Below are positions 2,965 to 20,502 of a DNA stretch of 64,000 nt, piece after piece. Every line of letters begins with the position of its first letter. Positions within the stretch are counted from its first letter, which is position 1. A program made the position numbers and the translations under genes. The DNA is from Pseudomonas resinovorans NBRC 106553 (GTDB lineage: Bacteria > Pseudomonadota > Gammaproteobacteria > Pseudomonadales > Pseudomonadaceae): the NCBI RefSeq assembly GCF_000412695.1, contig NC_021499.1:5084001-5148000 (forward strand). The letters run 5' to 3'. The notes under the pieces were generated by a model. It was given only the letters and a program-made list of their open reading frames with translations. It was not told where the DNA came from and did not search any database.

Positions 2965-3300
2965 CCGAAACCGGATGTTTGGTCAGCAGAACCATTGTTC
3001 AGGAACAGACGACGCGCACGCGCTGGGTATTCCCGCGGCTTCCAGGCCCATATCGCAGAACAAGCTACGCTTGATTGATTCGTCGGTGGAACTCACTCCG
3101 CCGAACACGCGCGACTGGACTTGCCAGAGTTGCCCGGCAATAGCCAACGAATGACCGGACTTATCGGGCTCGCTCCCGATCGGTTTCACGCCTGAACCCT
3201 ATCCACCCCACCCGGGTCGCCTGGATGAATGGGGGGTAGCTGCAGTGGAATTTCAACTGTAAGGGCCGGCCCTGTGCGGCACGCCCCACTTGGTGACGAT

Positions 3301-6300
3301 ATGGACATGACGACCAAGCCAGGCGACTCCCAGCCGCCTTCATTCAAGCCACAGCGCCGCGCGATGGCGCTCGAGCCACGCATCCTCTTCGATGGTGCGG
3401 CCGCCGTCGCGGCGGACCAGCAGCACCAGGACAGCGGCGACGCCGGCAAAGCGCCGGCCAGCGAGCATGCCACCCCCAGCGACGCCCGCAGCGAACCCGG
3501 CCAACAGCAGTCGGCCAGCCGCCACCTGCTGGTGCTGGATAGCCGCATCGACGGGCGCGAGCAACTGACGGCGCAACTGCCCGGCAACGTCGACGTGCTG
3601 GTGGTGGACAGCGACCAGGACGGCCTCGCGGCCATCTCCGCCGCCCTCGCCCAACTGGGCCAGGTGGACTCCATCCAGATCCTCTCCCACGGTGCCGCCG
3701 GCGAGTTCACCCTCGGCAAGACCACCGTCAGCGCCGACAACATCAAGCAGTTCACCCAGCCCCTCAGCCAATGGAGCCAGTCCCTCAGCGAGGGCGCCGA
3801 TATCCAGCTCTACGGCTGCAAGGTGGGCGCAGGCAGCGACGGACGGACCCTGGTGAACGAACTGGCGCGCATCACCGGCGCCGACGTGGCCGCGTCCAGC
3901 GACGATACCGGCGGCGCCCGCGCGGGTGGCGACTGGGTGCTGGAGGTCGCCAGCGGTGACATCGACAAGCCCCTCGCCCTCGCCGCGGCCGCCGCCAACG
4001 GCTACGACCGCCTGCTGGCCGCCGGCCCGACCACCACCCTCACGGGCGGCGCGGACGTGCTGCTGGGCGATACCTTCAACTTCAACGTCACCTTCACCAA
4101 CATCACCACCGATACGGGCTATGCGCCCTTCATCGACCTGTTCTTCCCGGCCACCGGCAAGGATGGCGCAGGCGCCGAGATCGACGACGGCATTACCTTC
4201 GTGTCCGCCAGCTACCTGGGCCAGAACCTGGCGACCCACGTCCTCACCTTCGACACCAATGGCCAGGCCAGCCACCCCCTGGCGGTGGGCACCAACGGCC
4301 AGCCCCTGGTGATCAACGCCGCCGACTTCGGCATGCAGGCCGGCGACCAGCTGGTGGTGGTGGAACTGCCGTTCGCCAGCGTCAGCCAGGGCCAGCCGCC
4401 GATCGTCGTGCAAGTCACGGCCACCCTGAGCGACCTGGCCGACACCGACTTCTCCTTCTCCGGCACGACCCCGGACCTGACGATTCGCGCCCGCAGCGGC
4501 TTCCAGTACGGCAACGACTCGCTGAACAACCCGGCCACCGACCCCAGCATCCTCGAGCCGTCCGCCAACGCCGACAGCTACGTGGTGCACCCGACGGTGG
4601 TCACCTTCGATCAGGTGATCACCACCCCCGAGGGCGAAACCGCCACGGGGCCGAACTACGGTCGCGAACTGGACGTCATCGTCACGCCGGCCGACTCACA
4701 GACCCTGCAGGACGTGGTGCTGGTCCAGCCCGTCCCGGATGACGTGATCGTCCGGAGCATCAGCCCCGGGACCGGCGGCACCCTCGCCTCGATCACCCTG
4801 TACGACGGCCGCGTCCTGACCAACGCGGCGGCGATCCAGGCGGTGCTGGCGCTGAACAACGACGGCAACCTCAACAACGACCTGTATATCAGCCGGTTCA
4901 CCGTCCGCTACCCGACACTGACCGGGCCGACCACCACCAGCGTGGAGTTCTTCGTCCCGGACGACGACTTCAGTGGCGCACCGGTGCTCAACCCCGCCAC
5001 CGGCGACGATGTCACCATCACCTTCGATGCGCCTACCGCCCAGGGCAACTGGCAGCCTCTGGACCCGCGCGACGCCACCAATGGTCTGATCCGCTTCGAC
5101 GGGACGGGGCAGGACGTCAGCTTCGTGGCCAAGTCCATCACCCTGGAGAAGCAGGTCAGCGTACGCACCGATGTCGGCACCCACGGCCTCAGCCCGGGCG
5201 ACACGCTGGACTACCGCCTGAACATCGCGCTGTCCGACTACTTCGCCTTCGGCCGCACCTTCCTCGGCCAGGGCAGCTTCCTGGTGGCCGACCAGCTCGG
5301 CGACGGCCAGAGCTTCGTGCCCGGCAGCGCCACCCTGACCATCACCCAGGGCGGCGTCAGCCAGACCATCGCCCTGGTCAGCAGCGTGGTGGTCAATGCC
5401 AACGGCACGACCTCCCTGGTGTTCGACATCGGCCAGTCGCTGGCCGCCGTCGTCCCCCTGCGCACCTCGCTTTCCGGCGACCTGGCCTTCGACGACCTGC
5501 TGCAGGGCGCCACCCTGGCGGTGATCGGCTACCAGGCACGGGTTGCGCAGAGCTATACGCCGCCGGCCGGCGCGCCCCATAGCGAGATCAACGAGGGCGA
5601 CTCCTTCGGCAACAACGCCACCGTCACCGCCACCATCCTGGTGGACGCCCTCAACCTCACCGGCTTCGACGAGAGCGACGGCTCCAGCACCATCAGCACC
5701 ATTCCCACCAGCCAGGTGCAGATCGACCTGGCGGGCCTCAACGGCGGCGGCGCGCCGGCACCGGGCACCGAACTGCGGCCAGGCGACTCGGTCACCTTCC
5801 GCCTCAGCTACGACCTGGTCACCGGCGACTACGAGAACTTCAAGCTCACCGCTTACCTGCCGCTGCCGCTGTTCGACCTGACCGGCGTCGACCTGAACAG
5901 CATCTGGCGCCTGGCCACGGGCAACACCAACCCCAACAGCCCCACCTCGGTGACTCTCGGCCCCGGCAACTCGCTGGTGTTCACTTTCGCCGACTACGTC
6001 AACCCCGGTATCAACGGCAGCCGGGTCGCCATCGACTTCACCCTGACCGTCAGCGACCAGCCCTTCGCCGACCAGCGCGCCTTCAACGTACTGGGCGAAT
6101 CCAGCCAGACCCGGACCCTGGACAAGAGCGTGCTGCTCACCACCGACGACGTCACCCTGATCGCCTCGGTGGCCGAGCCCGTGCTCAACCTCAGCCATGG
6201 CGTGGTCTCCACCAGCCACGGCACGGTGACCGGCACCACCGGCAGCTGGAACGCCCCCGGCACCACCGGCGTGCCCTTCGGCGGGCGCATCACCGACATA

Positions 6301-9300
6301 CTCGCGGTCAACGGCAACATCACCGGCATAGACGCCAGCGACCGCCTGCGCCTGGCCACCGCCATCGAGAACAGCGGCGGCGGCAACGCCTACGACGTCA
6401 GCACCAGCATCGCCCTGCCACCGGGGCTCAGCTTCGTCGGCGGCAACCTGTCCACCGCCAACCTGCTGATCTACCGTGGCGACGGCACCCGCCTGGTGGC
6501 CGGCACCCACTTCACCGTGAACAACGCCACCAACACCATCACCTTCATCGACGGCCCGGGCGTCGGCGCCCTACTGGCCGGACGTCCGGGCACCGCTGCC
6601 GACACCAGCGGCGCCAACCTGGTGGTGATCACCTACGACGTGCAGGTGGCGGCCAGCATCGGCGCCAGCGCCACCCTGCAGAGCACGGCGCAACTGACCC
6701 GCTACGCCAGCGTCGAGGGCGGCGAGAACTTCCTCTCAGCCCCGCTCAGCGACCTCGCCAGCCAGCAGGTCGCCGCGCCGACCATCAGCAAGAGCTTCGC
6801 CGGCGGCAGCCTGGACAACAGCGACTCCAGCGCCGCCCACACCACCGGAGCCAACCTGGTGGTGGGCGAGAGCATGCTCTACGACATCGTCGTCACCCTG
6901 CCCGAAGGCAGTACCCAGAACCTGCGCATCAACGACCTGATCCCACCCGGCCTGCGCCTGGACACCACCTTCAACGGCAACCTGGGCTACCAGCTGATCA
7001 CCACTGCCGGTGGCGCCCTCAGCGCCAACTTCGCCGGCACCCTGGCCGTCGGCAGCCTCACCGCGCCCACCGGCACACTGGGTGCCGACGGCGCCGACGC
7101 ACGCTTCACCTTCAGCGTCTCCACCACCGCCGGCGACAACAACACCGGCAACAACAGCTTCGTCATTCGCGTGCGCCTGGTGGCCAGCAACGTGATCGCC
7201 AACCAGACCGGCGACGTGCGGCAGAACGACGCCCAGCTCGCCTACAGCGATCCCGACGGCAATACCCCCAACGGCGCCACGCCCCTCGACCGGACGGTGG
7301 CCCTGACCGGGACCAAGCCGGCCATCACGGTCCAGGAGCCCACCCTGCAGCTCAACCAGCAGTTGCTCACCGACCCGGGCGTGGGCTTCGATGAAGGCGA
7401 CCAGGTGGACTTCCGCATCACCATCGCCAATGGCAACGGCGCCAGCGACTACGACGCCTTCGACATCGACTTCTCCAGCGTGCTGCCCACCGAGATGGAC
7501 CAGCTGACCCTGGTCAGCGCGATCTACACCGTCGGCGGCGTCAGCACCAATATCAGCGGCAGCTTCACCCTCGACCCGACTGGCCGCACCCTGGTCAACA
7601 GCGGCAACGTCGACATCGCCAAGGGCGGCACCATCGTCATCAGCGTACGCGGCGTGGTGAACGCCACCGGCGCCTCGGTGGCGCGCTTCGACAACCTCGC
7701 CGAGGTGCGCTGGACCAGCCTCAACGGCACCGTCGCCGGGGAACGCACCGGCGCCGACGGCCTGCTCAACAGCGGGGTGTTGAACGACTACCGCCGCTCC
7801 AGCGACCTGATCATTCCGGTCGCCCAGGGCATCAAGATCTCGCGGGTGGGCGGGCTGCCGGACACCGCCGCGCCGAACCCGACCAACGCGATCAATGAGA
7901 ACGTCACCATCGGCGAGATCGTCCACTACCGCGCCGTGGTGCTGGTGCCGGAAGGCAGCAACCCCAATTACCAGTTGCTCATCACGCTCAATCGCGGACT
8001 GTCCCTCGCCGACGTCGCCAGCATGCGCATCGGCTTCATTTCCGATGGCGGGCTGGTCACCAGCCTGGGCGACCTGATCATCGGCGGCACCCTGCAGATC
8101 ATCGGCAACGAGGACAGCCCGCAGGCGCAGTTCCTCAACCCGGACCTGTCCGGCGCCGCGCCCACGGGGGTGATCAACCCCATCTACGTGGTGCAGGACA
8201 CCGACGCCAACGGCAACCTGGTGGTGACCCTGAACCTGGGCAGCCTCACCAACGGCCCGTTCGGCAACGGCAACGACGCCAACGATGACGACCTCGAAGG
8301 CGTGGTCGTGGAGTTCAACGCCCGGGTCGACAACATCCTCGACAACCAGGCCGGCGACGCCCTCGGCGTGACCGTGCAGGACCGGGTCAACGGCAACCTG
8401 CGGGCCACCAGCGACACCCTCTTCGAGCGTATCGTCGAACCAAGCTTCAGCGGCGTGGACAAGCGCGTCACCGACTTCATTCCCAACCCCGGCGGCACCA
8501 CGGGCACCGCCACCGTCACGGTGGGCTTCACCTCCAACGGCGGCCTGCCGGCCTACGACGTGCGCCTGACCGACGGATTCCCCACCGGCAGCAACTACAG
8601 CCTGGTCAGCGTCACCATCGGCGGCACCACCTACGGTCCGGGCAACCTGCCGGCCGGCGTCAGCGTCAGCACCATCGGCGGCGTCACCGTGGATATCAGC
8701 CGGGTCGCGGTGGGCACCGCCGTCAGCGTGGTCTACCGCGTCGACGTGCCCAATGGCGCCACCATCGCCAGCGCCAACGCCAACGCCAACCTGAGCTGGT
8801 CCAGCCTGCCGGAAACCTTCACCAACTGGGGCGGCAGCACGGTGGGCCCCGACAGCAGCGCCACCGGCGAACGCACCGGCGCCAACGGGCCAGGCCCCGA
8901 CGCCAGCGTGCTGAACAACTATGTGCTGCGCGAGGGCGCGGGGCTCGGGATCATCAGCGGCACCCTGTGGAACGACACCGGCACCGCCGCCAGCGCCCCC
9001 AACGACATCGTCCCCGACGCCGACCCGGTACCGGGAACGCCAGCCTACGAACTGGCGATCCCCAACCAGGCCATCAACCTGGTCTGGGCCGGCAACGACG
9101 GCGTGTTCGGCAATGCCGACGACCGCACCTTCGGCACCACCACCGACGCCAACGGCCGCTTCAGCTTCGGCGTGCTGCCCTCCGGCCTGTTCCGCATCAA
9201 CGCGCCGGGCACCGTCAACAGCATCGCCCAGTTCGGCGAGCTGCGGATTCGCATCGATACCGATCGCGGTACCCTCGGCCAGGTCCAGGTGACCCTCGGC

Positions 9301-12300
9301 GAAGGCGCCACGCAACAGGCCAACTCCGGCTATGTCGAGATCAATGATGCGCCGGTGAACACGCTGCCGGGCTTCCAGCAGGGCGCCGAAGATACCCCGC
9401 GGGCGATTCCCGGCATCCGCGTCAGCGACATAGACGCCGAGCGCGACCCGGACGTGAACAGCCGCGCCATCCAGGTCACCCTGACCGTCACCCATGGCAC
9501 CTTGAGCCTTACCGGTGCCACCACCGGCGTCACGGTCACCGGTGCGGGCACCGCCAGCCTGGTGCTGGTGGGGCGAATCGCCAACCTCAACACCGCGCTG
9601 GCCGGCCTCAGCTACCTGGGCAACCTGAACTTCAACGGCAACGACTTCCTCGAAGTGCTGACCAACGACCTGGGCAACTACGGCGATTTCAACGGTAACG
9701 GCATTCCCGGCGAGCTGGCCGATGCCCGCACCGACAGGGACTTCCTGGTCATCAACCTCACCCCGGTCAACGACCCCCCGGTGGCGGTGGATGACAACGC
9801 CGCCGCGCTGGAAGCCGGCGGCACCGACAACCGCACCCCCGGCATCGACCCACGGGGCAACGTACTGGCCAACGACACCGACGTCGACATCGGCACCAAC
9901 GGCGACCAGCTCCGCGTCGTCTCCGTGACCTCACCACTGAACGTCCTGGTCACCATCCCGGCGGTGGGCCCGGCGGAAATCATCGGCCGCTACGGCCGCC
10001 TGGTACTCCAGGCCGACGGCGCCTACCAGTATTTCGTCGACAACGACAACGCCGAAGTGCAGGCCCTGCGCCTGGCCACCGACCAGTTGACCGAGGTCTT
10101 CACCTACGTGGTTTCCGACATCGGCATCGGTGGCGCGCCCCTGCAGGATACGGCGACCCTCACGGTGGTCATCCAGGGCGCCAACGACACCCCCGTGGGC
10201 GTCAACGACCAGGGCACCGCCGTCGAGAGCGGCGGCGTCAACAACACCAACGTCGGCAATCCCGGCGACACGCCGCCGACGGGCTTCCCGGTGCCCGGCG
10301 CCAACGCCACCGGCAATGTGCTGGCCAACGATATCGATGTGGACGGCGGCGAGAACCCGGCAGACCCGATCGACTATGGCGAGACCAAGACCGTCACCGG
10401 CGCGCGCCCGCTGCGCGAGCTGGTCCCCGGCGCCCTGACCCCGGTACCCGCCGGTGGCAGCGCGGTCATCGTCGGCACCTACGGCACCCTGACCATCGAA
10501 TCCGATGGCGACTACACCTACGTGATCAACGAGAACAACACGGCGGTGCAACGCCTGGGGCCCAACGACAGCCTGGTCGACATCTTCAGCTACCAGGTCA
10601 CGGACGCGCTGGGCCTCAACGACCTGGCCGAGCTGCGCATCACCGTGCGCGGCAACTACGACAACCCCGTGGCCAGCGACGACCAGGCGTCCGCCCAGGC
10701 CGGCTCCGGCCCCAACGCCATCGGCGAGAGCAACCCCAGCGGCAACGTCATTCTCTTCCCCAGCCGCCCCGGCACGGTCACCCAACCTGGCGGCAATGGC
10801 GTGGACAACGACGTCGATGCCGCCGACCGGCCCAACACCCTGCTGCAGGTCAACGGCGTGCGCTCGGGGCTGGAAACCGCCGGCGGCGTACTGATTGGCG
10901 TCGCCGCCGGCTCCACCAGCACCACAGGCGCCACCCTGCTGCTGGGCAACTTCGGCCTGCTGCGCATTGGTGCCGACGGCTCCTTCACCTATGACGTGGA
11001 CAGCGCCAATCCCACGGTGCAGGCCCTGCAGGCCGGCCAGACCCTGACCGAGACCTTCACCTACCAGATCGTCGACACCAACGGCTTCACCGACCAGGCG
11101 CAACTGGTGATCACCGTGCGCGGCGTGAACGACCCGCCGGTGGCGCAGAACAGCTTCAACATCGCCGTCGAACGCGGCGGCGTTGCCAATGGCCAGGCCG
11201 GCATCGACCCCTCGGGCGACGTCCTGCTCAACGACTTCGACCCCGACGGCGACCCGCTGTCGGTGATTTCCATCAGCAACGACACCCTGGGCACCACCGG
11301 TGTGATCGGCCAGGCCTTCGACGGCCAGTATGGCACCCTCACCCTGAATGCCGACGGCACCTATACCTATGTGCTGGACAACGACAACCCCGAAGTGGAA
11401 GCCCTGCGCCAGCTTTCCGACGTCCTCATCGAACGCTTCACCTACGCCATCTCCGATGGCCTGGAAGCCCCACAGTCCGCGCAACTGGTGATCATCATCC
11501 TCGGCCGCAACGACAACCCGGTGGCGGCCAACGACAGCGCCACGGCGGTGGAAGCCGGCGGCGTCAACAACGGCAGCGCCGGCGTCGACCCCACGGGCAA
11601 CGTGCTGGGCAACGACACCGACGTCGACGGTGGCGAGCGTCCCACCGACCCCATCGACTACGGCGAGACCCAGGCGGTGGGCTCGGTGCGCACCGGCGCC
11701 GTCGAGGGCGCGGGTACCGCCGGCATCCTGGGTACCGAACTGCGCGGCACCTACGGCTGGCTGACCCTGCATGCCGACGGCAGCTACAGCTATCGCCTGG
11801 ACAACACCATGGCGGCGGTCCAGGCCCTGCGCCCCGGCAACACCCTCACCGACAGCTTCAACTACAGCGTCATCGACACCGCAGGCGCCCAGGACATCGC
11901 GGTGCTGAACATCACCATCCAGGGAGCCAACGACGCCCCGGTGGCCAACGACGACAACGCCATCGCCGTCGAGGCGGGTGGCCTCGACAACAACCTCGCG
12001 GGCGTCGACCCGAGCGGCAATGTCCTGGCCAACGACACCGACGTCGACCAGTTCGGCGAAACGCTCACCGTGGTCGGTGTCCGCCACGGTGCCGCTGTCG
12101 GCACCATCGGCAGCGCCTTGGCCGGCGAGTACGGCACCCTGACCCTCAACGCCGACGGCAGCTACACCTACATCGTCGACAACGACGACCCACGGGTGGA
12201 GGCCCTGCGCATCGCGGGCGATACGCTGCGCGAATCCTTCACCTACACCATCCGCGACCTGGCCGGCGCCACCAGCAGCGCCACCCTGACCATCACCATC

Positions 12301-14757
12301 CAGGGTCGCAACGACAATCCCCACGCCATCCGCGTGGACATCGTCGCCGTGGAAGCCGGCGGCACCCGCAACAGCACCCCCGGCATCGACCCGCGCTTCA
12401 ACGTCCTGGCCAACGACCGCGATGTCGACGCCGGCGATACCAAGACGCTCATCGGCATCCGTCTCGGCGACGAGCTTGGGGGCAACAACTTCACCCTGGT
12501 CACCGGCAACCAGAGCATCAATGGTCTCTACGGCACCTTGATCGTGAGTCCCAACGGTGAGTCGCACTACGTGGTGAACAACGCCCTGGCGGCGGTACAA
12601 GCCCTCAAGCCCGGCGATACGCTACGGGAGGTGTTCTCCTACCGCATGCGCGACACCGCCAGCGCCCTCAGCATCGCCCGGATCGCCATCACCATCCAGG
12701 GCGCCTGGGACGCGCCCGTGGCCAACAACGACATCAATATCGCGGTGGCCGACAACGGCGACGGCCTGGTGCTCAACCCCACCGGCAACGTGCTGCCCAA
12801 CGACACCGACGTCGACCAGGGCGACCAGCTCACCGTCACCGCGGTACGCACCGGCGCCGAAAGCGGCACCGGTACCGCCGGCAGCGTGGGCAACGTGCTG
12901 GTCGGCCAGTACGGCACCCTGATCCTCAACGCCGACGGCAGCTACCACTACATCCTCGATACCGGCAATCCGGAGGTCCTGGCCCTCAACCTGTTCGAGA
13001 CCGTGCGCGACACCTTCACCTACCAGGCCACCGACCGTGGTGGGCTCAGCGACCTGGCCCAGCTGACCATCGTCATCATCGGCCGCAACGATGCGCCGGA
13101 CGGCGTCGACGACGTGGCGAGGGCGATCGAGGCGGGCGGCCTGAACAACAACGTCCCGGGCCTCAACCCCAGCGGCAACGTACTGGACAACGACAGCGAC
13201 CTGGAAAACAGCCCGCTCACGGTCACGGCGATCCGTACCGGCGCGGAAACCGCCACTGGCACCGGCGGCACCCTGGGCACTTCGCTGCGCGGCCTCTACG
13301 GCACCCTGACGATGAACGCCGACGGCAGCTGGACCTACATCGTCGACAACAGCCTGGCGGCGGTACAGGCGCTGCGCATCAGCGGCCAGACGCTGGTGGA
13401 TACCTTCACCTACACCGTCGCCGACCCCAACGGGGCGGACGACACCGCGGAACTGCGCATCACCATCGACGGCCGCAACGACACGCCGATCGCCGCCAAC
13501 GACGACGCCACGGCCGTGGAGGCCGGAGGCAGGGACAACGGCACTCCGGGCAGTGACCCGACCGGCAACGTGCTGACCAACGACACCGACGTCGATGCCG
13601 TGGCCAATGGCGAGACCAAACAGGTGCTCTCGGCCACCAGCGAGCTGGGCAACAGCGCCGCCGCCGGCCAGGCCCTGGTGGGGCGCTACGGCACCCTGAT
13701 CCTCAATGCCGACGGCAGCTACCAGTACCTGCTGGACAACAGCAACCCGACGGTGCAGGCGCTGCGCACGGCGGGCAACACCCTGCGCGAGAGCTTCACC
13801 TACACCCTGCGCGATGCCGAAGGCGCCCAGTCCGTGGCGCGCCTGAACATCCTCATCGAAGGCGCCAACGACGCGCCGGTGGCCCGCGATGACGGCAACG
13901 TCGCCAGCGACCAGACGGTGGCGCCCCAGGCCAGTGGCAACGTGCTGCCCAACGACAGCGACATCGACGCCGGCGACGGCCTGCAGGTGGTGGGCGTACG
14001 CACCGGCCTGGAGACCGGCAGCGGCACCACCGGCGCGGTCGGGCAACCCCTGCAGGGCCGCTACGGCACCCTGGTGCTCAACGCCGACGGCAGTTACACC
14101 TACAGCATCGACCTGACCAACCCCGAGGTGCTCGCCGCCGCCGGCCTCGGCCGGGTGCTGCAGGACGTGTTCACCTACACCATGAGCGACCTCGCCGGGG
14201 CGACGGACCTGGCGCAGCTGGTGATCGACCTGGACATCGCCGCGCCCTTCATTCCCGCGCCCGATAGCGACCCCATCGGCCCATTCGAGGACCGCGAAGA
14301 CCTCGATCCCTTCGCCCGCCCGCGACTGCCGGGGGTGGACCCGGTGGTCTACGTGGGCCCGGTGGTGGAACGCAACGAGCGGCTGCTCCAGCTTTCCGAC
14401 TGGGAGGCCGACGGCAGCGACCTGCGCCTGGCCAGCCCGATGCAGATCGAGAGCGAAACCCTGCTCGCGCGCCTGGGCATGGGGCCCGGCCAGTTCGTCG
14501 GCCGCGCCGTGAACCAGAGCGCTACGGAAAGCGCACAGGACCTGGCCTGGATCCTCGGCCGCCATAGCCGCATCGACCTCACCGCGGACGGCCTGCTGGC
14601 CGATCCCTCGGTATTCGCCACCAACGCGGAGAACCTCACCCAAGGCGACACCCAATTGCCACCGCCATCCGACAGCCGCACCGCCCCCGGCTTCCGCGCC
14701 CAGTTACGCGAAGCCGCAGAGCGCCTGCGCGCCCTCGGCAATGGCACCAGCGAATAA
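3301..14757 (+). CDS. Giant (3818-aa) DUF4347/VCBS-repeat surface or secreted protein
   Basis: A very large, Gly/Asn/Asp-rich, acidic protein with no Sec signal. N-terminus: basic stretch then ALEPRILFDG at residues 23-32, the LEPR-type leader of giant exported proteins. DUF4347 spans about 74-237, with SHG at 129-131 and YGC at 171-173. Residues about 240-1880 are DUF11-like beta domains (GDTLDYRL, LPPGLSF and similar). An SdrD-B-like domain covers about 1880-2015, then a cadherin-like region, then eleven VCBS repeats from about 2160 to 3643. The C-terminal 175 residues show no RTX nonapeptides, LPxTG or autotransporter barrel. By eye C173 is the only cysteine. The ATG at 3301 is chosen because GGTGA precedes it. 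It heads an operon with four envelope genes that probably export, process or anchor it. Likely role: adhesion or biofilm (inference). Confidence 0.85.
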   Translation: MDMTTKPGDSQPPSFKPQRRAMALEPRILFDGAAAVAADQQHQDSGDAGKAPASEHATPSDARSEPGQQQSASRHLLVLDSRIDGREQLTAQLPGNVDVLVVDSDQDGLAAISAALAQLGQVDSIQILSHGAAGEFTLGKTTVSADNIKQFTQPLSQWSQSLSEGADIQLYGCKVGAGSDGRTLVNELARITGADVAASSDDTGGARAGGDWVLEVASGDIDKPLALAAAAANGYDRLLAAGPTTTLTGGADVLLGDTFNFNVTFTNITTDTGYAPFIDLFFPATGKDGAGAEIDDGITFVSASYLGQNLATHVLTFDTNGQASHPLAVGTNGQPLVINAADFGMQAGDQLVVVELPFASVSQGQPPIVVQVTATLSDLADTDFSFSGTTPDLTIRARSGFQYGNDSLNNPATDPSILEPSANADSYVVHPTVVTFDQVITTPEGETATGPNYGRELDVIVTPADSQTLQDVVLVQPVPDDVIVRSISPGTGGTLASITLYDGRVLTNAAAIQAVLALNNDGNLNNDLYISRFTVRYPTLTGPTTTSVEFFVPDDDFSGAPVLNPATGDDVTITFDAPTAQGNWQPLDPRDATNGLIRFDGTGQDVSFVAKSITLEKQVSVRTDVGTHGLSPGDTLDYRLNIALSDYFAFGRTFLGQGSFLVADQLGDGQSFVPGSATLTITQGGVSQTIALVSSVVVNANGTTSLVFDIGQSLAAVVPLRTSLSGDLAFDDLLQGATLAVIGYQARVAQSYTPPAGAPHSEINEGDSFGNNATVTATILVDALNLTGFDESDGSSTISTIPTSQVQIDLAGLNGGGAPAPGTELRPGDSVTFRLSYDLVTGDYENFKLTAYLPLPLFDLTGVDLNSIWRLATGNTNPNSPTSVTLGPGNSLVFTFADYVNPGINGSRVAIDFTLTVSDQPFADQRAFNVLGESSQTRTLDKSVLLTTDDVTLIASVAEPVLNLSHGVVSTSHGTVTGTTGSWNAPGTTGVPFGGRITDILAVNGNITGIDASDRLRLATAIENSGGGNAYDVSTSIALPPGLSFVGGNLSTANLLIYRGDGTRLVAGTHFTVNNATNTITFIDGPGVGALLAGRPGTAADTSGANLVVITYDVQVAASIGASATLQSTAQLTRYASVEGGENFLSAPLSDLASQQVAAPTISKSFAGGSLDNSDSSAAHTTGANLVVGESMLYDIVVTLPEGSTQNLRINDLIPPGLRLDTTFNGNLGYQLITTAGGALSANFAGTLAVGSLTAPTGTLGADGADARFTFSVSTTAGDNNTGNNSFVIRVRLVASNVIANQTGDVRQNDAQLAYSDPDGNTPNGATPLDRTVALTGTKPAITVQEPTLQLNQQLLTDPGVGFDEGDQVDFRITIANGNGASDYDAFDIDFSSVLPTEMDQLTLVSAIYTVGGVSTNISGSFTLDPTGRTLVNSGNVDIAKGGTIVISVRGVVNATGASVARFDNLAEVRWTSLNGTVAGERTGADGLLNSGVLNDYRRSSDLIIPVAQGIKISRVGGLPDTAAPNPTNAINENVTIGEIVHYRAVVLVPEGSNPNYQLLITLNRGLSLADVASMRIGFISDGGLVTSLGDLIIGGTLQIIGNEDSPQAQFLNPDLSGAAPTGVINPIYVVQDTDANGNLVVTLNLGSLTNGPFGNGNDANDDDLEGVVVEFNARVDNILDNQAGDALGVTVQDRVNGNLRATSDTLFERIVEPSFSGVDKRVTDFIPNPGGTTGTATVTVGFTSNGGLPAYDVRLTDGFPTGSNYSLVSVTIGGTTYGPGNLPAGVSVSTIGGVTVDISRVAVGTAVSVVYRVDVPNGATIASANANANLSWSSLPETFTNWGGSTVGPDSSATGERTGANGPGPDASVLNNYVLREGAGLGIISGTLWNDTGTAASAPNDIVPDADPVPGTPAYELAIPNQAINLVWAGNDGVFGNADDRTFGTTTDANGRFSFGVLPSGLFRINAPGTVNSIAQFGELRIRIDTDRGTLGQVQVTLGEGATQQANSGYVEINDAPVNTLPGFQQGAEDTPRAIPGIRVSDIDAERDPDVNSRAIQVTLTVTHGTLSLTGATTGVTVTGAGTASLVLVGRIANLNTALAGLSYLGNLNFNGNDFLEVLTNDLGNYGDFNGNGIPGELADARTDRDFLVINLTPVNDPPVAVDDNAAALEAGGTDNRTPGIDPRGNVLANDTDVDIGTNGDQLRVVSVTSPLNVLVTIPAVGPAEIIGRYGRLVLQADGAYQYFVDNDNAEVQALRLATDQLTEVFTYVVSDIGIGGAPLQDTATLTVVIQGANDTPVGVNDQGTAVESGGVNNTNVGNPGDTPPTGFPVPGANATGNVLANDIDVDGGENPADPIDYGETKTVTGARPLRELVPGALTPVPAGGSAVIVGTYGTLTIESDGDYTYVINENNTAVQRLGPNDSLVDIFSYQVTDALGLNDLAELRITVRGNYDNPVASDDQASAQAGSGPNAIGESNPSGNVILFPSRPGTVTQPGGNGVDNDVDAADRPNTLLQVNGVRSGLETAGGVLIGVAAGSTSTTGATLLLGNFGLLRIGADGSFTYDVDSANPTVQALQAGQTLTETFTYQIVDTNGFTDQAQLVITVRGVNDPPVAQNSFNIAVERGGVANGQAGIDPSGDVLLNDFDPDGDPLSVISISNDTLGTTGVIGQAFDGQYGTLTLNADGTYTYVLDNDNPEVEALRQLSDVLIERFTYAISDGLEAPQSAQLVIIILGRNDNPVAANDSATAVEAGGVNNGSAGVDPTGNVLGNDTDVDGGERPTDPIDYGETQAVGSVRTGAVEGAGTAGILGTELRGTYGWLTLHADGSYSYRLDNTMAAVQALRPGNTLTDSFNYSVIDTAGAQDIAVLNITIQGANDAPVANDDNAIAVEAGGLDNNLAGVDPSGNVLANDTDVDQFGETLTVVGVRHGAAVGTIGSALAGEYGTLTLNADGSYTYIVDNDDPRVEALRIAGDTLRESFTYTIRDLAGATSSATLTITIQGRNDNPHAIRVDIVAVEAGGTRNSTPGIDPRFNVLANDRDVDAGDTKTLIGIRLGDELGGNNFTLVTGNQSINGLYGTLIVSPNGESHYVVNNALAAVQALKPGDTLREVFSYRMRDTASALSIARIAITIQGAWDAPVANNDINIAVADNGDGLVLNPTGNVLPNDTDVDQGDQLTVTAVRTGAESGTGTAGSVGNVLVGQYGTLILNADGSYHYILDTGNPEVLALNLFETVRDTFTYQATDRGGLSDLAQLTIVIIGRNDAPDGVDDVARAIEAGGLNNNVPGLNPSGNVLDNDSDLENSPLTVTAIRTGAETATGTGGTLGTSLRGLYGTLTMNADGSWTYIVDNSLAAVQALRISGQTLVDTFTYTVADPNGADDTAELRITIDGRNDTPIAANDDATAVEAGGRDNGTPGSDPTGNVLTNDTDVDAVANGETKQVLSATSELGNSAAAGQALVGRYGTLILNADGSYQYLLDNSNPTVQALRTAGNTLRESFTYTLRDAEGAQSVARLNILIEGANDAPVARDDGNVASDQTVAPQASGNVLPNDSDIDAGDGLQVVGVRTGLETGSGTTGAVGQPLQGRYGTLVLNADGSYTYSIDLTNPEVLAAAGLGRVLQDVFTYTMSDLAGATDLAQLVIDLDIAAPFIPAPDSDPIGPFEDREDLDPFARPRLPGVDPVVYVGPVVERNERLLQLSDWEADGSDLRLASPMQIESETLLARLGMGPGQFVGRAVNQSATESAQDLAWILGRHSRIDLTADGLLADPSVFATNAENLTQGDTQLPPPSDSRTAPGFRAQLREAAERLRALGNGTSE
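9778..14230 (+). repeat. Eleven tandem VCBS repeats within the giant gene
   Basis: Units begin near 9778, 10190, 10663, 11136, 11516, 11935, 12317, 12712, 13093, 13484 and 13873, giving periods of roughly 380-470 bp. Each unit has the scheme PVA.DD.A.AVEAGG, then GNVLANDTDVD, G.L.V..VRTG, YGTL.LNADGSYTY..DN, L.DTFTY...D..G....A.L.I.I.G.ND. These are calcium-type beta-sandwich domains common in bacterial adhesins. DNA-level similarity is high around the YGTL/NADGSYTY block, so the array is likely to vary in copy number by recombination. Confidence 0.88.
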
Positions 14758-14777
14758 GCAGCAAACAAGGAATGCCC

Positions 14778-16310
14778 ATGCCAAGACCGCCACTTACGCT
14801 CCTCGGTGCCGCCATCGCCTCAGCCCTGCTGCTGGGTGCCTGCTCGGCCACGAAGACCCCGACCTACACGGAAGAGGAAGGCCGCCAGCGGATCATTCGC
14901 GACCAGGCGCAGATGTACGCCGACCAGGAACCGGTGACCGCCCCCATCACCTTCTACGAGGCCGCCGCCCGCGCCCTGAAGTACAACCTCGACTACCGCC
15001 TCAAGCTCATGGAAAGCGCCCTGGCGTCGGACCTGCGCGACGTCTCCAGCCACGAGATGCTGCCGCGGCTGGTGGCCTCGGCCGGCTACGCCGGGCGCAA
15101 CAACGATTCCGGCGGCACCTCCATCGGCATCGAGGACCGCGAACAGAGCCTGCGCGCCTCCACCTCGGAAGAACGCTACCGCGAGCTCTACGGCCTGGGC
15201 CTGTCCTGGAGCCTGCTGGACTTCGGCGTGGCCTACTACCGCACCCAGCAGAAGAGCGACCAGGTCCATATGGCCGAGGAGCGCCGGCGCAAGGTGGCGC
15301 AGAACGTCCTGCAGGACGTGCGCAACTCCTACTGGCGCGCGGTGGGCGCCCAGCGCCTGATGCCCCAGGTCGACCGCCTGCTGGCACGCACCCACCAGGC
15401 CCTGCTGTCGGCCCGCGAAGCCGAGACCAAGGGGCTGCTGCCACGCCAGGAAGTGCTGGCCTACCAGCGCGCCCTGCTCGACTCCATCTACCTGCTCACC
15501 GTGCGCCGCCAGGACCTGGAGTTCGCCCAGTCCGAGCTGTCGGCGCTCATGTCCCTGCCGCCCGGCTCGAAGCTGATCCTCGCCGACCAGGCCGAGCCCG
15601 CGCTGCCGGAGCTCAGCCAGGAGATCAACCGGCTGGAGCAGCTGTCCCTGGAAAACCGCCCGGAAATCATGGAGGAGTGGTACCGCAAACGGGTCAGCGA
15701 GAACGACCTGAAGATCGCCAAGGCCCAGCTCTGGCCCAACGTCAGCCTGGACTTCGGCTACAAGTACGACTCCAACAAGTTCCTCTACAACAGCCACTGG
15801 ACCGAGACCGGCCTGCAGGTGTCGCTGAACCTGCTGCGCCTGTTGCAACTGCCCGACCTCAACGAGGCCGCCGAGTCCCAGGGCAAGACCGACGACATGC
15901 GCCGGGTGGCGCTGTCCATGGCCATCCTCACCCAGGTCAGGGTGGGCGCGCTGCGCTACCAGCTGGCGCGCCAGGAAGTGGAGTTCGCCGACCAGAGCCT
16001 GCGGGTGGACCAGAGCCTGCTGGACTACGCCCAGGCGGCGCGCAGCACCTCCTATGGCTCGGAGCTGGAACTGATCCGCGCCGAGGGCCGCTACCTGCTC
16101 TCGCGCTACCAGCGCGAGGCGGCGTACTCCAGCGCCCAGGCGGCCTGGGGGCGGCTGTACAACTCCGTCGGCCTGGACATCCTCCCCGAGCAGATCGAGC
16201 AGCACGACATCCAGACCCTGGCCCGCGAGATCCAGCAAACCCTGGGTGAACAGGAAAGCAGCAAGCTCCTTACCAGCACGCAAGGAACACCGAATGTCGT
16301 CCACCGTTGA
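14778..16310 (+). CDS. TolC-family outer-membrane lipoprotein of the giant-protein system
   Basis: 510 residues from the ATG at 14778. I prefer this start over the ATG six bases earlier because AAGGA then sits at correct spacing. The signal peptide ends in the lipobox LLGAC (Cys22). The body has two TolC-type repeats: ITFYEAAARALKYNLDYRLKLMES with LGLSWSLLDFGVAYYRTQQ, and LENRPEIMEEWYRKRVSENDLKIAKAQLWPNVSLDFGYKYDSNKF. These are the alpha-barrel/beta-barrel motifs of outer-membrane efflux ducts. It begins 20 nt after the giant gene and overlaps the next gene by 17 nt. By context it provides the outer-membrane exit for the giant protein or for its processed product, rather than serving a drug pump. 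Confidence 0.86.
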   Translation: MPRPPLTLLGAAIASALLLGACSATKTPTYTEEEGRQRIIRDQAQMYADQEPVTAPITFYEAAARALKYNLDYRLKLMESALASDLRDVSSHEMLPRLVASAGYAGRNNDSGGTSIGIEDREQSLRASTSEERYRELYGLGLSWSLLDFGVAYYRTQQKSDQVHMAEERRRKVAQNVLQDVRNSYWRAVGAQRLMPQVDRLLARTHQALLSAREAETKGLLPRQEVLAYQRALLDSIYLLTVRRQDLEFAQSELSALMSLPPGSKLILADQAEPALPELSQEINRLEQLSLENRPEIMEEWYRKRVSENDLKIAKAQLWPNVSLDFGYKYDSNKFLYNSHWTETGLQVSLNLLRLLQLPDLNEAAESQGKTDDMRRVALSMAILTQVRVGALRYQLARQEVEFADQSLRVDQSLLDYAQAARSTSYGSELELIRAEGRYLLSRYQREAAYSSAQAAWGRLYNSVGLDILPEQIEQHDIQTLAREIQQTLGEQESSKLLTSTQGTPNVVHR

Positions 16311-17073
16311 TCGTCGTCTGCTGCTCCTCCTGCTGCCCCTCGCGCTATGCCTCCCTCCGCTCCCGGCCCTGGCCGAGGACGCCCCGCAACCCGGCGCCGT
16401 GGAGGAACCCGGCGCCATCCGCGTACTGCTGGCCGCAGAACTGGAAACCACCCTGTCCAGCCAGATGAACGGCACCCTGGGCGAGCTCAAGGCGTCCCTC
16501 GGCCAACAGGTGGCCAAGGACGCGTTGCTGGCCCAGCTCAACTGCGACGAGGCACTGGCCCGCTCCAAGGTGGCCGCCGCCGAGTTGACCATGGCCCGGC
16601 AAAGCCTCGACGCCAAGCGCAACCTGCGCAAGCTGGACGCGGTGGGCGACCTGGAAGTGGCCATGGCCAATACCGAGGTGCAGAAGGCCGAAGGTGCACG
16701 GGCGCTGGCCCAGGCCCAGAGCGGCTACTGCCAGGTGCGCGCGCCGTTTTCCGGGCGGGTCGCCAAGGTCCATGTGAAACCCTTCCAGACCGTGGCCGCC
16801 GGCATGCCGCTGTTCGACCTGGTCAGCGACGGCGCCCTCAAGGTGCGCCTCAACGTGCCGTCCAGCCTGCTGCCCCGGCTCAAGGCCGGCCAGGCGCTGC
16901 AGGTCAGCATCCTGGAAACCGGCAAGGACTACGACGCCCACATCAGCGCCGTCAACTCGCGGGTGGATGCCGTGGCGCAGACCGTGGAACTGGAGGCACG
17001 CCTCGATGCCGAGCACCCGGAACTGATCGCCGGCATGAGCGGCACCGCACGCTTCCCGCAACCCCATGACTGA
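16294..17073 (+). CDS. Periplasmic adaptor (HlyD/RND membrane-fusion type) with Sec signal
   Basis: 259 residues from the ATG at 16294, set by AAGGAACACCGA upstream. A cleavable signal peptide (RRLLLLLLPLALCL, then PALA) leads into a short adaptor. A lipoyl-like half (LSSQMNGTLGELKASLGQQV) precedes a coiled-coil hairpin of about residues 80-140, then a second lipoyl half (CQVRAPFSGRVAKVHVKPFQTVAAG) and a beta-barrel (LKVRLNVPSSLLPRLKAGQALQVSI). It lacks the membrane-proximal domain and lipid anchor of classical RND adaptors, so it is probably soluble in the periplasm. It overlaps the TolC-like gene by 17 nt and the next gene by 8 nt, indicating translational coupling and a shared complex. Confidence 0.82.
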   Translation: MSSTVDRRLLLLLLPLALCLPPLPALAEDAPQPGAVEEPGAIRVLLAAELETTLSSQMNGTLGELKASLGQQVAKDALLAQLNCDEALARSKVAAAELTMARQSLDAKRNLRKLDAVGDLEVAMANTEVQKAEGARALAQAQSGYCQVRAPFSGRVAKVHVKPFQTVAAGMPLFDLVSDGALKVRLNVPSSLLPRLKAGQALQVSILETGKDYDAHISAVNSRVDAVAQTVELEARLDAEHPELIAGMSGTARFPQPHD

Positions 17074-18406
17074 TCGCCTGCCCCACCCCCAGCTGCTGCT
17101 GGCCCTGGCCGCCCTGCGCGACCGCGCCCTGGCCGCCGACTCGCTGAACGCCCTGGCGTTCTCCATGGCCAACGATGGCTACGCCCTGCTGCGCTACCAC
17201 CAGGCGCTGGTGTTCGCCCAGCGCGGTGCCGACCTGGAACTGCTCTGCGTGTCCGGCCTGGCGCGGCCCAGCGAGGACTCGCCCTACCTGGTCTGGCTGC
17301 GTCGCGCCAGCCGCTGGCTCGCCCAGCAGTTGCCCGACGCCCGGCCGCGCTGGTTGCCCCGCGATGAACTGGAGCCGCCGGCGGACATCGCCGAAGGCTG
17401 GGCCGAATGGTGGCCCAGCGGGCTCTGGTGCGTGCCCCTGCACGACCGCGATGGCCAGCGCCTGGGGCTGGTGCTGTTCCTCCTCGACGCGTCCCCGGCC
17501 GACGAGGTAGCGCCCCTGCTGGACGGCGTCTGGCAGACCTGGGCGCACTGCTGGGCCGCCTTCGGCAAGCGCCGCCGGCTGCTCGGCTGGCGGCCCGGCA
17601 AGCGCCAGGTCCTGCTGGCCCTGGCGGTGGCCGCGGCACTGCTGCTGGTGCCGGTACGGCAGACCGCGCTGGCGCCGGCGGAGATCGTTTCGCGCCAGGC
17701 ATTGATCGTCAGTTCCCCCATCGACGGCGTGATCCAGCGCATGGAGGTCCGGCCGAACCAGGCCGTGGAGGAAGGCACCCTGCTCTTCACCCTCGACGAG
17801 ACCACCCTGAAGAGCCGCGCCGAGGTGCTCGGCAAGGAGGTGGCCGTGGCCGACGCCGAACTGATGGCGGCGAGCCAGAGGGCCTTCGACAACCCCCAGA
17901 GCAAGAGCGAGCTCACCTTGCTCAACGGCCGCGTCCTGCAGCGCCGGGCCGAGCTCGCGGCGGTGCAGGCCCAGCTGCGACGTACCCGGGTGCTGTCGCC
18001 CCGGGCGGGCGTCGCGGTGTACAGCGATCCCAATGACTGGATCGGCAAGCCGGTGGTGACCGGCGAGCGCATCCTCCAGGTGGCCGACCCGGCGCAGCCG
18101 GCGATGCTGATCAAACTGCCGGTGGCCGACGCCATCGCCCTGGACCCCGGCGCGGAGGTCACCCTGTTCCTCACCGCGTACCCCCTCTCGCCCCTCAAGG
18201 GAAAGGTGCTGGAGACCAGCTACCAGGCACACGCCAGCGAGGAAGGCGTGGTGGCCTACCGCCTGCTGGCCAGCGTCGAGGGCCAGCCGGAGCACGCCCG
18301 CCTGGGCCTGCACGGCACCGCCAAGCTCTACGGCGAACGCGTGGTGCTGGGCTACTACCTGCTGCGCCGGCCCTTCGCCGCGCTGCGCGCCTGGACCGGG
18401 CTGTGA
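17066..18406 (+). CDS. Inner-membrane HlyD-like adaptor with N-terminal GAF-like cytosolic domain
   Basis: 446 residues. Residues 1-170 are soluble and cytosolic, and resemble a GAF fold: an alpha-helix, a beta sheet containing LELLCVSGLARPS, and GLWCVPLHDRDGQRLGLVLFLLD. One transmembrane helix follows (VLLALAVAAALLLVPV, about 178-195). The periplasmic part is a HlyD adaptor: lipoyl half SPIDGVIQRMEVRPNQAVEEGTLLF is split here as PIDGVIQRMEV and QAVEEGTLLF, then a coiled coil about 250-305, then RVLSPRAGVAVYSDPNDWIGKP and a barrel domain. Its ATG overlaps the upstream stop by 8 nt. A ligand-sensing GAF-like domain on an export adaptor is unusual and could gate secretion. The GAF assignment is by fold pattern only. 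Confidence 0.78.
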   Translation: MTDRLPHPQLLLALAALRDRALAADSLNALAFSMANDGYALLRYHQALVFAQRGADLELLCVSGLARPSEDSPYLVWLRRASRWLAQQLPDARPRWLPRDELEPPADIAEGWAEWWPSGLWCVPLHDRDGQRLGLVLFLLDASPADEVAPLLDGVWQTWAHCWAAFGKRRRLLGWRPGKRQVLLALAVAAALLLVPVRQTALAPAEIVSRQALIVSSPIDGVIQRMEVRPNQAVEEGTLLFTLDETTLKSRAEVLGKEVAVADAELMAASQRAFDNPQSKSELTLLNGRVLQRRAELAAVQAQLRRTRVLSPRAGVAVYSDPNDWIGKPVVTGERILQVADPAQPAMLIKLPVADAIALDPGAEVTLFLTAYPLSPLKGKVLETSYQAHASEEGVVAYRLLASVEGQPEHARLGLHGTAKLYGERVVLGYYLLRRPFAALRAWTGL

Positions 18407-20502
18407 TACCGAACGCGGCCGCCATGCCGCTGCCGCCGCTGCGCGAAGACCTGCGCCTGCTGGAAAGCGCGCCGAGCAGCGACGGCGAGCCGGCCTGGGT
18501 GATCCAGGACACCGTGGTCAATCGCTTCTACCGCATAGGCTGGCTGGAGTTCGAATGCCTGCTGCGCTGGGAACAGACCCCGGAGCGGATCTGCCAGGAC
18601 ATCCAGGCCCGGACACCGCTGCGCCCGGACGTGGAGCAGGTGCTGGAGTTCCGCCAGTTCCTCGACCAGCACCAGCTGCTGCGTCCATCGCCCGACGCCG
18701 CCGCCCGCCTGGCCAAGCGCAGCGAAGGCAATGCCTGGCTGAACTGGCGCTGGTGGCTGCACCACTACCTGTTCTTCCGCGTGCCGCTGCTGCGGCCGCA
18801 GCGCCACTTGCAGCGCCTGGCCGGCCATCTGGACTGGCTGTTCCGTCCCGCCACCGCCGTCCTGGTGGTGACCCTGGGCGTGATCGGCGTGCTGCTGGTG
18901 CTGCAGCAATGGGATGCCTTCACCACGGCGGTGGTGGAGTCCTTCTCGGCCTCCGGGCTGGTCAGCTTCGCCCTGGCGCTGATCGTCGCCAAGACCCTCC
19001 ACGAACTGGGCCATGCCCTGGTGGCCACGCGCCTGGGCCTGCGGGTGGGACACATGGGTATCGCCTTCGTGGTGCTCTGGCCGATGCTCTATACCGACAC
19101 CGGCGAGAGCTGGAAGCTGCGCAGCTCCCGGCAACGCCTGGCCATCGCCTCCGCCGGCATCCTCACCGAGCTGGGCCTGGCGGGGCTGGCCACCCTCGGC
19201 TGGGCGCTCTCGGACCCCGGCCCGCTGCGCAACGCCCTGCTCTACCTGGCGACCACCAGCTGGGTGTTGTCCCTGGCACTGAACGCCAGCCCGTTCATGC
19301 GCTTCGACGGCTACTTCATCCTCTCCGACCTGCTGGATTTCCCCAACCTCCACGAGCGCTCCTCGGCCCTGGCGCGGGTCACCCTGCGGCGCGCCCTGCT
19401 GGGGCTGGACGAACCCTGGCCGGAAAGCTTCCCCACCGGCAAGCGCCGCACCCTGGTGGCCTTCGCCATGGTCACCTGGGTCTACCGCCTGGTGCTGTTC
19501 CTCGGCATCGCGGTGGCGGTCTACCTGCTGTTCTTCAAACTGCTCGGGATACTGCTCTTCGTGGTGGAAATCTCCTGGTTCATCCTCATGCCGATCTGGC
19601 GCGAACTGAAACACTGGTGGGCCAACCGCAGCGCCATCCCCACGAGCCGCCGGCGCGCCTGGCTGGGCCTGCTGGCGGTCGTCCTGCTGCTCTTGGCGGT
19701 GCCCTGGCGCAGCCAGGTGCACGCCCTGGGCGTGGCCCGCGCCGAACACCAGCTACGGGTCTTCGCGCCCTACCCGGCGCGACTGGTGGCCATCCACCCC
19801 GCCGGCCGGGTGGAGGCCGGCAGCACCCTGGTGACCCTGGACGAACCGGACATCGCCTCGCGCCTGAGCAGCAGCGAGGCCAACGTGAGGAGCTACGAGG
19901 CGCGCCTGGGCGGCCTGATCGCCGACCCCAGCGGCGCCGAGCAGGCCCTGGCCACCCGCCAGCGCCTGGGGGTGCAGTTCGAGGAGGTCAAGGCGGCCCG
20001 CTCGGAAATCGCCCGACTCAAGCTCCAGGCCCCCTTCGCCGGGCAATGGCTGGACCTGGACCCGGACTGGCGCCCCGGCCAGTGGGTGCATAGCCGCGAG
20101 CCCATCGGCATGCTGGTGGACCCGGGCAGCTGGCAGGTGGACGCCTATGTCGATCAGGACGACGTGCAACGCCTGATCCAGGGCGGCGCGGTGCGCTTCT
20201 ACCCCGAGGGCCAGCCCACCCCTATCGCTGGCAAGGTCGTGACCATCGGCAGCACCCGTGTCAGCCAGCTCGAGCACCCCATGCTCGCCTCGCGCTTCGG
20301 CGGCCCGCTGACCACCAGCAACCAGGGCAAGGAGCTGGTGCCGACACCGCCCCTGTTCCACGTGCTGGTGCAGCTGGAACAGGCCCCGCCCAGCCTGCGC
20401 GAAACCCGTGGACACCTGCAGATCGAAGGCAACCGCCGCAGCCTGCTGGGCCAGGGCCTGACCCATGTGGCGGCGGTGCTGCTGCGCGAAAGCGGCTTCT
20501 GA
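18403..20502 (+). CDS. Site-2 protease (M50)/HlyD fusion with PqqD-like N-terminus
   Basis: 699 residues from a GTG overlapping the previous stop (GTGA). Residues about 20-100 look like a PqqD/winged-helix peptide-binding domain (VVNRFYRIGWLEFECLL). A membrane peptidase follows, with HELGH at 200-204 inside a hydrophobic helix and NASPFMRFDG at 294-303, where Asp302 is the likely third zinc ligand; these are the two M50 signatures. About six to eight membrane helices run to residue 440. The C-terminal half, after VLLLLAVPWRSQVHALG, is a periplasmic HlyD-like adaptor (APYPARLVAIHPAGRVEAGS, short coiled coil, KLQAPFAGQWLDLD, barrel). It is the only enzyme-like component of the operon and takes the place where a type I system would have its ABC ATPase. 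Confidence 0.82.
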   Translation: MIPNAAAMPLPPLREDLRLLESAPSSDGEPAWVIQDTVVNRFYRIGWLEFECLLRWEQTPERICQDIQARTPLRPDVEQVLEFRQFLDQHQLLRPSPDAAARLAKRSEGNAWLNWRWWLHHYLFFRVPLLRPQRHLQRLAGHLDWLFRPATAVLVVTLGVIGVLLVLQQWDAFTTAVVESFSASGLVSFALALIVAKTLHELGHALVATRLGLRVGHMGIAFVVLWPMLYTDTGESWKLRSSRQRLAIASAGILTELGLAGLATLGWALSDPGPLRNALLYLATTSWVLSLALNASPFMRFDGYFILSDLLDFPNLHERSSALARVTLRRALLGLDEPWPESFPTGKRRTLVAFAMVTWVYRLVLFLGIAVAVYLLFFKLLGILLFVVEISWFILMPIWRELKHWWANRSAIPTSRRRAWLGLLAVVLLLLAVPWRSQVHALGVARAEHQLRVFAPYPARLVAIHPAGRVEAGSTLVTLDEPDIASRLSSSEANVRSYEARLGGLIADPSGAEQALATRQRLGVQFEEVKAARSEIARLKLQAPFAGQWLDLDPDWRPGQWVHSREPIGMLVDPGSWQVDAYVDQDDVQRLIQGGAVRFYPEGQPTPIAGKVVTIGSTRVSQLEHPMLASRFGGPLTTSNQGKELVPTPPLFHVLVQLEQAPPSLRETRGHLQIEGNRRSLLGQGLTHVAAVLLRESGF

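Follow-up and report, generated by a model that had tools for sequence, protein, structure and literature searches.

Giant repeat adhesins are exported by type I secretion systems such as LapBCE and SiiCDF, in which the adhesin, a TolC-like outer-membrane factor and HlyD-type adaptors belong to one locus. The locus analyzed here resembles them in this respect. It lies in a 64,000-nucleotide stretch (the window; positions 5,084,001 to 5,148,000 of contig NC_021499.1) of the Pseudomonas resinovorans NBRC 106553 genome (6.48 Mb, two contigs), and consists of a gene for a giant adhesin-like protein (the client) followed by genes for a TolC-like outer-membrane factor, two adaptors and a fusion protein designated M50H. 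The last joins an RRE (recognition element for RiPPs, ribosomally synthesized and post-translationally modified peptides), an M50 membrane metalloprotease and a third adaptor. Of the features by which type I secretion is recognized, an adaptor and a TolC-like outer-membrane factor are present, and a co-encoded ATP-binding cassette (ABC) exporter and client RTX repeats are absent; the locus differs further in an N-terminal signal on the client (LEPR) and in having three adaptors, one fused to the RRE and M50 domains. Because there is no ABC exporter, the system was not filed as type I secretion. Giant adhesins without RTX repeats exist. Retention of the LapA type involves LapG and LapD genes and a di-alanine cleavage site, LapA being released by LapG.

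Other likenesses lie outside type I secretion. Rhombosortase- and exosortase-type sorting depends on a C-terminal tag with a transmembrane helix. The GlyGly-CTERM/rhombosortase and MYXO-CTERM/myxosortase pairs, as described in the excerpts consulted, also link a short sorting tag with an intramembrane protease across many genomes; here the tag is N-terminal and has no transmembrane helix, and the protease is a metalloprotease carrying an RRE and an adaptor. RiPP systems, with their RREs (PqqD, TbiB1, TfuB1) and M50 proteases (daptide NF041824, YydH/LiaK NF058609), share with the locus the RRE fold, a leader-like N-terminal signal and an M50 membrane protease. In the present locus the client has 3818 aa and is no short peptide, and the protease carries a fused adaptor and is linked with an outer-membrane factor. 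Finally, the DUF4347 effector Tce1 (PA0256) is presented in the excerpts seen as a 310-aa type VI secretion cargo (PMC13323088, PMC8262886), whereas here DUF4347 heads a giant protein with a LEPR leader. The single parts are known families, and novelty is claimed for the combination and the signal. We consider it fairly probable that the five genes form a client and a dedicated, leader-guided export and processing machine.

The LEPR signal and its pairing with M50H

The client is read from an open frame at 3229-14757 (+) of 3842 codons. The ATG at 3301, which yields 3818 residues, is favored as the start because short orthologues (P0128, P0130, P0132) have ∼18-22 residues ahead of the LEPR motif. 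When the first 400 residues from this start were scanned, the N-terminus matched the NCBI model LEPR-XLL (NF012209) at 18.3 bits against a cut-off of 17; a scan of the complete giant did not list the model at E≤0.01. No function for LEPR-XLL was found in the literature searched, where the excerpts seen give the name and assign it none, so that the present proposal would provide one. Motifs were collected with a pattern whose second place must be E or Q and whose fourth must be R, which fixes R by construction. All 52 loci tried fit [LIMF][EQ]xR, seven short-frame matches (L195, L197, L198, L200-L203) having been left out; place 2 was E in 52, place 3 was P in 39, and place 8 was S in 39 or D in 10. 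LEPR starts also head frames of 19427 aa (G284:C115:112865), 15251 aa (G236:C1:2799186) and 13848 aa (G049:C1:429854), which are among the longest bacterial frames.

The original prediction held that the client bears neither an RTX nor a Sec signal. This part stands: the giant contains one GGxGxD in 3842 residues and, along its whole length, no segment with KD19≥1.6, and an RTX array, a Sec-type signal and a transmembrane helix are therefore absent by these simple tests. What had been overlooked is the LEPR signal itself, along with the RRE domain, the C-terminal motif and a second copy of the system at 1.785-1.808 Mb. In LEPR segments, which contain E and R, maximum KD17 hydrophobicity reaches 1.56 at most (median 0.87), compared with 1.3-2.4 for Sec-like starts. 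Judged from these values, the LEPR segment looks too polar for a transmembrane helix.

Pairing was assessed in two samples. Among 232 genomes of the class, M50H (called at E≤1e-30) was found in 31, DUF4347 in 27 and both in 19 (Fisher P = 6e-14; this and the other Fisher values overstate independence, since the sampled genomes are related by descent). N-termini could be classed in 25 of the 27 DUF4347 genomes; G060, which is below cut-off, and G173, truncated at a contig end, were left out. The DUF4347 N-terminus was LEPR in 19, of which 18 have M50H (the exception is G216), and LEPR-less in six, of which one has M50H (G067, with a LEPR gene elsewhere); the Fisher value is 6e-4, or 2e-3 if the contig-cut M50H of G106 is not counted. 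LEPR-less proteins had Sec-like starts in G111, G031 and G067, less clearly in G147, and no signal in G193 and G219. NF012209 matches at E≤0.005 in frames >400 aa occurred in 20 genomes, 18 of them with M50H (not G066 or G189). In the phylum sample of 299 genomes, 75 had M50H (E≤1e-20), 66 had LEPR (E≤0.05) and 57 had both (Fisher 1.7e-35), and all 35 genomes with LEPR at E≤1e-3 had M50H. Three candidates were scored per genome, and M50H copies are undercounted as a result. With M50H in 75/299 genomes, the proposal would also give a function to a widespread orphan operon.

Signal subtype follows M50H phylogeny. A quick maximum-likelihood tree took in the 44 M50H proteins for which a LEPR sequence was retrieved and whose contig also carries the LEPR gene, the two starts being no more than 50 kb apart. 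It has two clades (SH-aLRT 100), although the position of G096 is unsure due to its long branch. Partner signals are of the FDGA/LDAA type in 20/20 members of clade I and of the SAD/SGE type in 21/24 members of clade II, the other three being LLAAD, LLNSD and LLDGT. Four subtype states need 4 changes on this tree, against a mean of 16.6 after shuffling (0/200 as low). G236 and G318 each carry one system per clade, every one adjoining its own motif subtype. The pairing of LEPR with M50H and its subtype specificity are well supported. One very long frame, at G189:C57:21725 (L277), begins with the LEPR-like LEQRLLLSTS; a frame of 853 aa lying 5.8 kb away matches an adaptor weakly, and no M50 domain was found in that genome, which is an exception or a variant.

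Conservation of the locus and of its components

The gene arrangement originally reported is confirmed: a 3818-aa giant, an outer-membrane factor, two adaptors and the M50 fusion follow one another on the + strand. The overlaps of 4-17 nt claimed for all junctions hold for the last three (17, 8 and 4 nt) and fail between giant and outer-membrane factor, where there is a 14-nt gap. Related loci (80, from named records) were taken among the matches listed, in Pseudomonas, Variovorax, Caballeronia, Aeromonas, Comamonas, Halomonas, Desulfopila and others. The four genes occur in order at 74/80, and in 4 of the remaining 6 loci the sequence breaks off close to a contig edge. A giant frame is present at 59/80 loci and no other additional neighbor in more than 6. 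Note that the neighbor tally loses some genes inside over-long M50H frames and calls no ORFs (open reading frames) <100 aa; the four-gene count came from a separate scan. An arrangement of four genes plus giant at this frequency is far beyond chance. Conserved neighbors at the 80 loci, by the same tally, comprise the four genes and the giant, with no RiPP precursor peptide or modification enzymes among them.

At the other end of the client, [FLIMV]..[QH][LIMV] occurs within the last 48 residues of 60/64 giants encoded upstream of an outer-membrane factor, against 134/1280 random windows of the same proteins. The motif is polar, and there is no C-terminal transmembrane tag of the rhombosortase/exosortase type. 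In 6/64 giants (L063, L064, L068, L069, L073, L085) the final residue is cysteine.

M50H of the window is closest to proteins of the Pseudomonas resinovorans group. Its N-terminus is an RRE by profile and by fold match to PqqD and other RREs, and it resembles leader-bound TfuB1/TbiB1. The M50 domain (Pfam M50, 4.6e-9) has the HExxH and DG zinc motifs of a site-2 protease in a membrane domain; these motifs are invariant in alignment A6. The daptide model NF041824 covers residues 28-393 at 7.3e-47, with a score of 160 against a cut-off of 300. The third part of M50H, residues 414-699, has the fold of an adaptor. A C-terminal RESGF is nearly invariant in 41 close relatives and is kept in part of clade I only.

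DUF4347 spans residues 100-263 of the 3842-residue frame. Its predicted model has a caspase-like fold with a His-Cys dyad, as in clan CD cysteine peptidases; many giant surface proteins would then be headed by a domain of this fold. DUF4347 is not the mark of the client: G198, G049 and G096 have clients that keep LEPR and in which no DUF4347 was found.

A leader-guided export model and its alternatives

The statement that the window locus encodes no ABC ATPase was borne out: a scan for Walker A and LSGGQ-like motifs found no ABC protein in the 64-kb window and one 365-aa ORF in the preceding 20 kb. The neighborhood search proposed earlier was also run, and related loci do not routinely include an ABC ATPase; an ABC-like ORF occurs at 5/80, each time downstream on the opposite strand. 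In G096, a 634-aa ABC-like ORF lies 3' of M50H on the same strand; it is Uup/ABC-F-like and was ruled out as an exporter. For type I ABC exporters elsewhere in the genome, three curated models were applied stepwise to 54 of the 57 paired genomes (G233, G234 and G244 were left out). TIGR03375 was over its cut-off in 32/54, TIGR01846 in 7 of the other 22 and TIGR01842 in 5 of the remaining 15, which leaves 10/54 with no type I ABC exporter over cut-off (G145, G198, G265, G271, G275, G284, G287, G310, G337 and G352). The G198 genome, 100% complete in one contig, encodes a LEPR giant of 4385 aa and all four genes; its ABC match, at 7e-105, is under the cut-off of TIGR03375. G145 has no match to any of the three models at the thresholds used.

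We propose that the N-terminal LEPR would act as a non-Sec leader on the giant, bound by the RRE of M50H on the cytosolic side much as RREs bind RiPP leaders, and that the M50 metalloprotease would most likely cut within or just past LEPR. The domain order is read most simply as binding by the RRE and cutting by the M50 domain. The three adaptors, one periplasmic and two membrane-tethered, would dock on the lipoprotein outer-membrane factor to form a conduit to the surface, and the conserved C-terminal motif probably marks the client's other end. DUF4347, behind the leader, may be a second, optional peptidase whose role might be self-processing or release. The whole would work as a tripartite exporter whose base is a protease that reads the leader; proton motive force, Sec, or folding of the repeats outside are candidate energy sources. 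Such a machine would link RiPP leader recognition with protein secretion and suggests a sorting route, without an ABC pump, for some of the largest bacterial proteins. That the same complex also provides the inner-membrane path is a bold step. Bolder, and put forward tentatively as something we think may well not hold, is a separate secretion class in which the RRE-M50-adaptor protein reads a RiPP-type leader on frames of up to 19,427 residues and opens the inner-membrane path, so that export would occur in one step without an ATPase of its own, driven by proton motive force or outside folding.

Several observations weigh against leader-guided export. Leader binding, M50 cleavage, transport through the conduit and its energy are steps we infer. 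Some type I ABC exporter is over cut-off in 44/54 paired genomes, among them the window host, which encodes such exporters elsewhere, and help in trans is possible in all of these genomes. In the phylum sample, a few of the 75 M50H genomes rest on partial matches (G341, G454 and G500; also G335 at 3.8e-21, not inspected), and nine genomes have LEPR only (E 0.0027-0.05, frames of 64-1014 aa). LEPR-like starts in the class sample are accompanied by no detected M50 domain in G066, G189 and G216. Conversely, NF012209 matches nothing at E≤0.05 in 18/75 M50H genomes, likely an undercount, since FDGA-type starts get scores from this model that are close to its cut-off or under it. The claim of one ATPase-free pathway for a dedicated giant survives in part: synteny, co-occurrence of LEPR and M50H and the 10/54 genomes argue for it, whereas inner-membrane passage by the complex is still something we infer and the host has type I ABC exporters elsewhere.

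These exporters also bear on a reading that we regard as rather unlikely, in which the giant leaves C-terminus first through another machine (type I secretion in trans) while LEPR stays anchored to M50H in the inner membrane, until M50 cleavage frees the giant as LapG does LapA. The conserved C-terminal motif speaks for it, and a literature passage, seen as an excerpt, mentions a LEPR-XLL protein with a C-terminal RTX part, which also counts against leader-guided export. It fits poorly with the ten paired genomes lacking a type I ABC exporter over cut-off, G198 and G145 among them, with the missing RTX array, and with an outer-membrane factor and three adaptors of the locus's own, needless for retention alone. 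LapG and LapD genes were not among the conserved neighbors in the 80 locus neighborhoods covered.

We rate as less probable still that LEPR is an unusual Sec signal, SecA driving the inner-membrane step, M50H removing the signal, and adaptors and outer-membrane factor performing the outer-membrane step. LEPR N-termini do have a basic start followed by a short apolar stretch, and some LEPR-less DUF4347 proteins have Sec-type starts; but LEPR segments fall short of Sec-like starts in hydrophobicity, contain E and R, and this scheme leaves the RRE without a role. An ordinary small-molecule or metal efflux operon that happens to adjoin an unrelated adhesin gene was already disfavored and is very improbable: the best generic name of one adaptor is RND_mfp, yet no pump gene is among the conserved neighbors of the 80 loci, and the tight pairing and subtype co-variation of LEPR with M50H would be left unaccounted for.

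Feature coordinates, second copy and neighbors

Table 1. Features of the locus, in window positions
Feature	Position	Strand	Evidence
Client, giant adhesin-like protein, 3818 aa, DUF4347 and 11 cadherin/VCBS repeats	3301..14757	+	Frame, domain matches, orthologue starts
N-terminal LEPR signal LEPRILFDGA, residues 24-33 of 3818-aa form	3370..3399	+	NF012209, 18.3 bits; pattern scan of own genome
DUF4347, caspase-fold domain, predicted His 3688-3690 and Cys 3817-3819	3526..4017	+	PF14252, 1.5e-51; model, fold match, dyad conservation
Conserved C-terminal motif GFRAQLREAAERL and tail of giant	14689..14754	+	60/64 related giants match
TolC-like outer-membrane factor, lipoprotein signal	14772..16310	+	Pfam OEP, 9.9e-36; lipobox LLGAC read by eye
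Periplasmic adaptor, N-terminal hydrophobic signal	16294..17073	+	HlyD_3, 1.1e-19; RND_mfp, 115 bits (cut-off 94.9)
Adaptor with cytosolic GAF-like N-terminus and one hydrophobic helix	17066..18406	+	HlyD_3; hydrophobicity scan
M50H (RRE, M50 membrane metalloprotease, adaptor)	18403..20502	+	Domain profiles, HELGH and N..P....DG motifs
RRE domain of M50H, residues 9-96	18427..18690	+	Profile and fold match
HELGH zinc site of M50 domain	19000..19014	+	HExxH in 44/44 tree members
MacA/MexA-like adaptor domain of M50H, residues 414-699	19642..20499	+	

The second copy, at ∼1.785-1.808 Mb of the same genome, comprises an adaptor, a GAF-adaptor, an M50H 37% identical to that of the window, a 626-aa DUF4347/FG-GAP protein, a 3462-aa DUF4347 giant and an outer-membrane factor. 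A GAF_2 match was found solely in this GAF-adaptor, at 2.4e-4 and under its cut-off. All three DUF4347 proteins of the host start with the same kind of motif (LEPRILFDGA, LEARMMFDGA and LEARMMFDGA). A degenerate DNA pattern of the motif had 4 matches in the genome and 0 for a reversed control; three of the matches are these N-termini, and the fourth lies inside a 241-aa hydrolase-like ORF.

The 626-aa protein, between the second M50H and its giant (L004:12152-15879, ∼1.79 Mb), has lost both dyad residues. The same stretch contains an Asp/Arg-hydroxylase-like protein with a Nif11 match and a sulfotransferase-like frame, which are possible modification genes of the second system. In the window, a GGDEF protein is encoded at 26008-27165 (-), ∼5.5 kb downstream of the operon, and the other neighbors are a SulP permease, RecJ and YaeQ.

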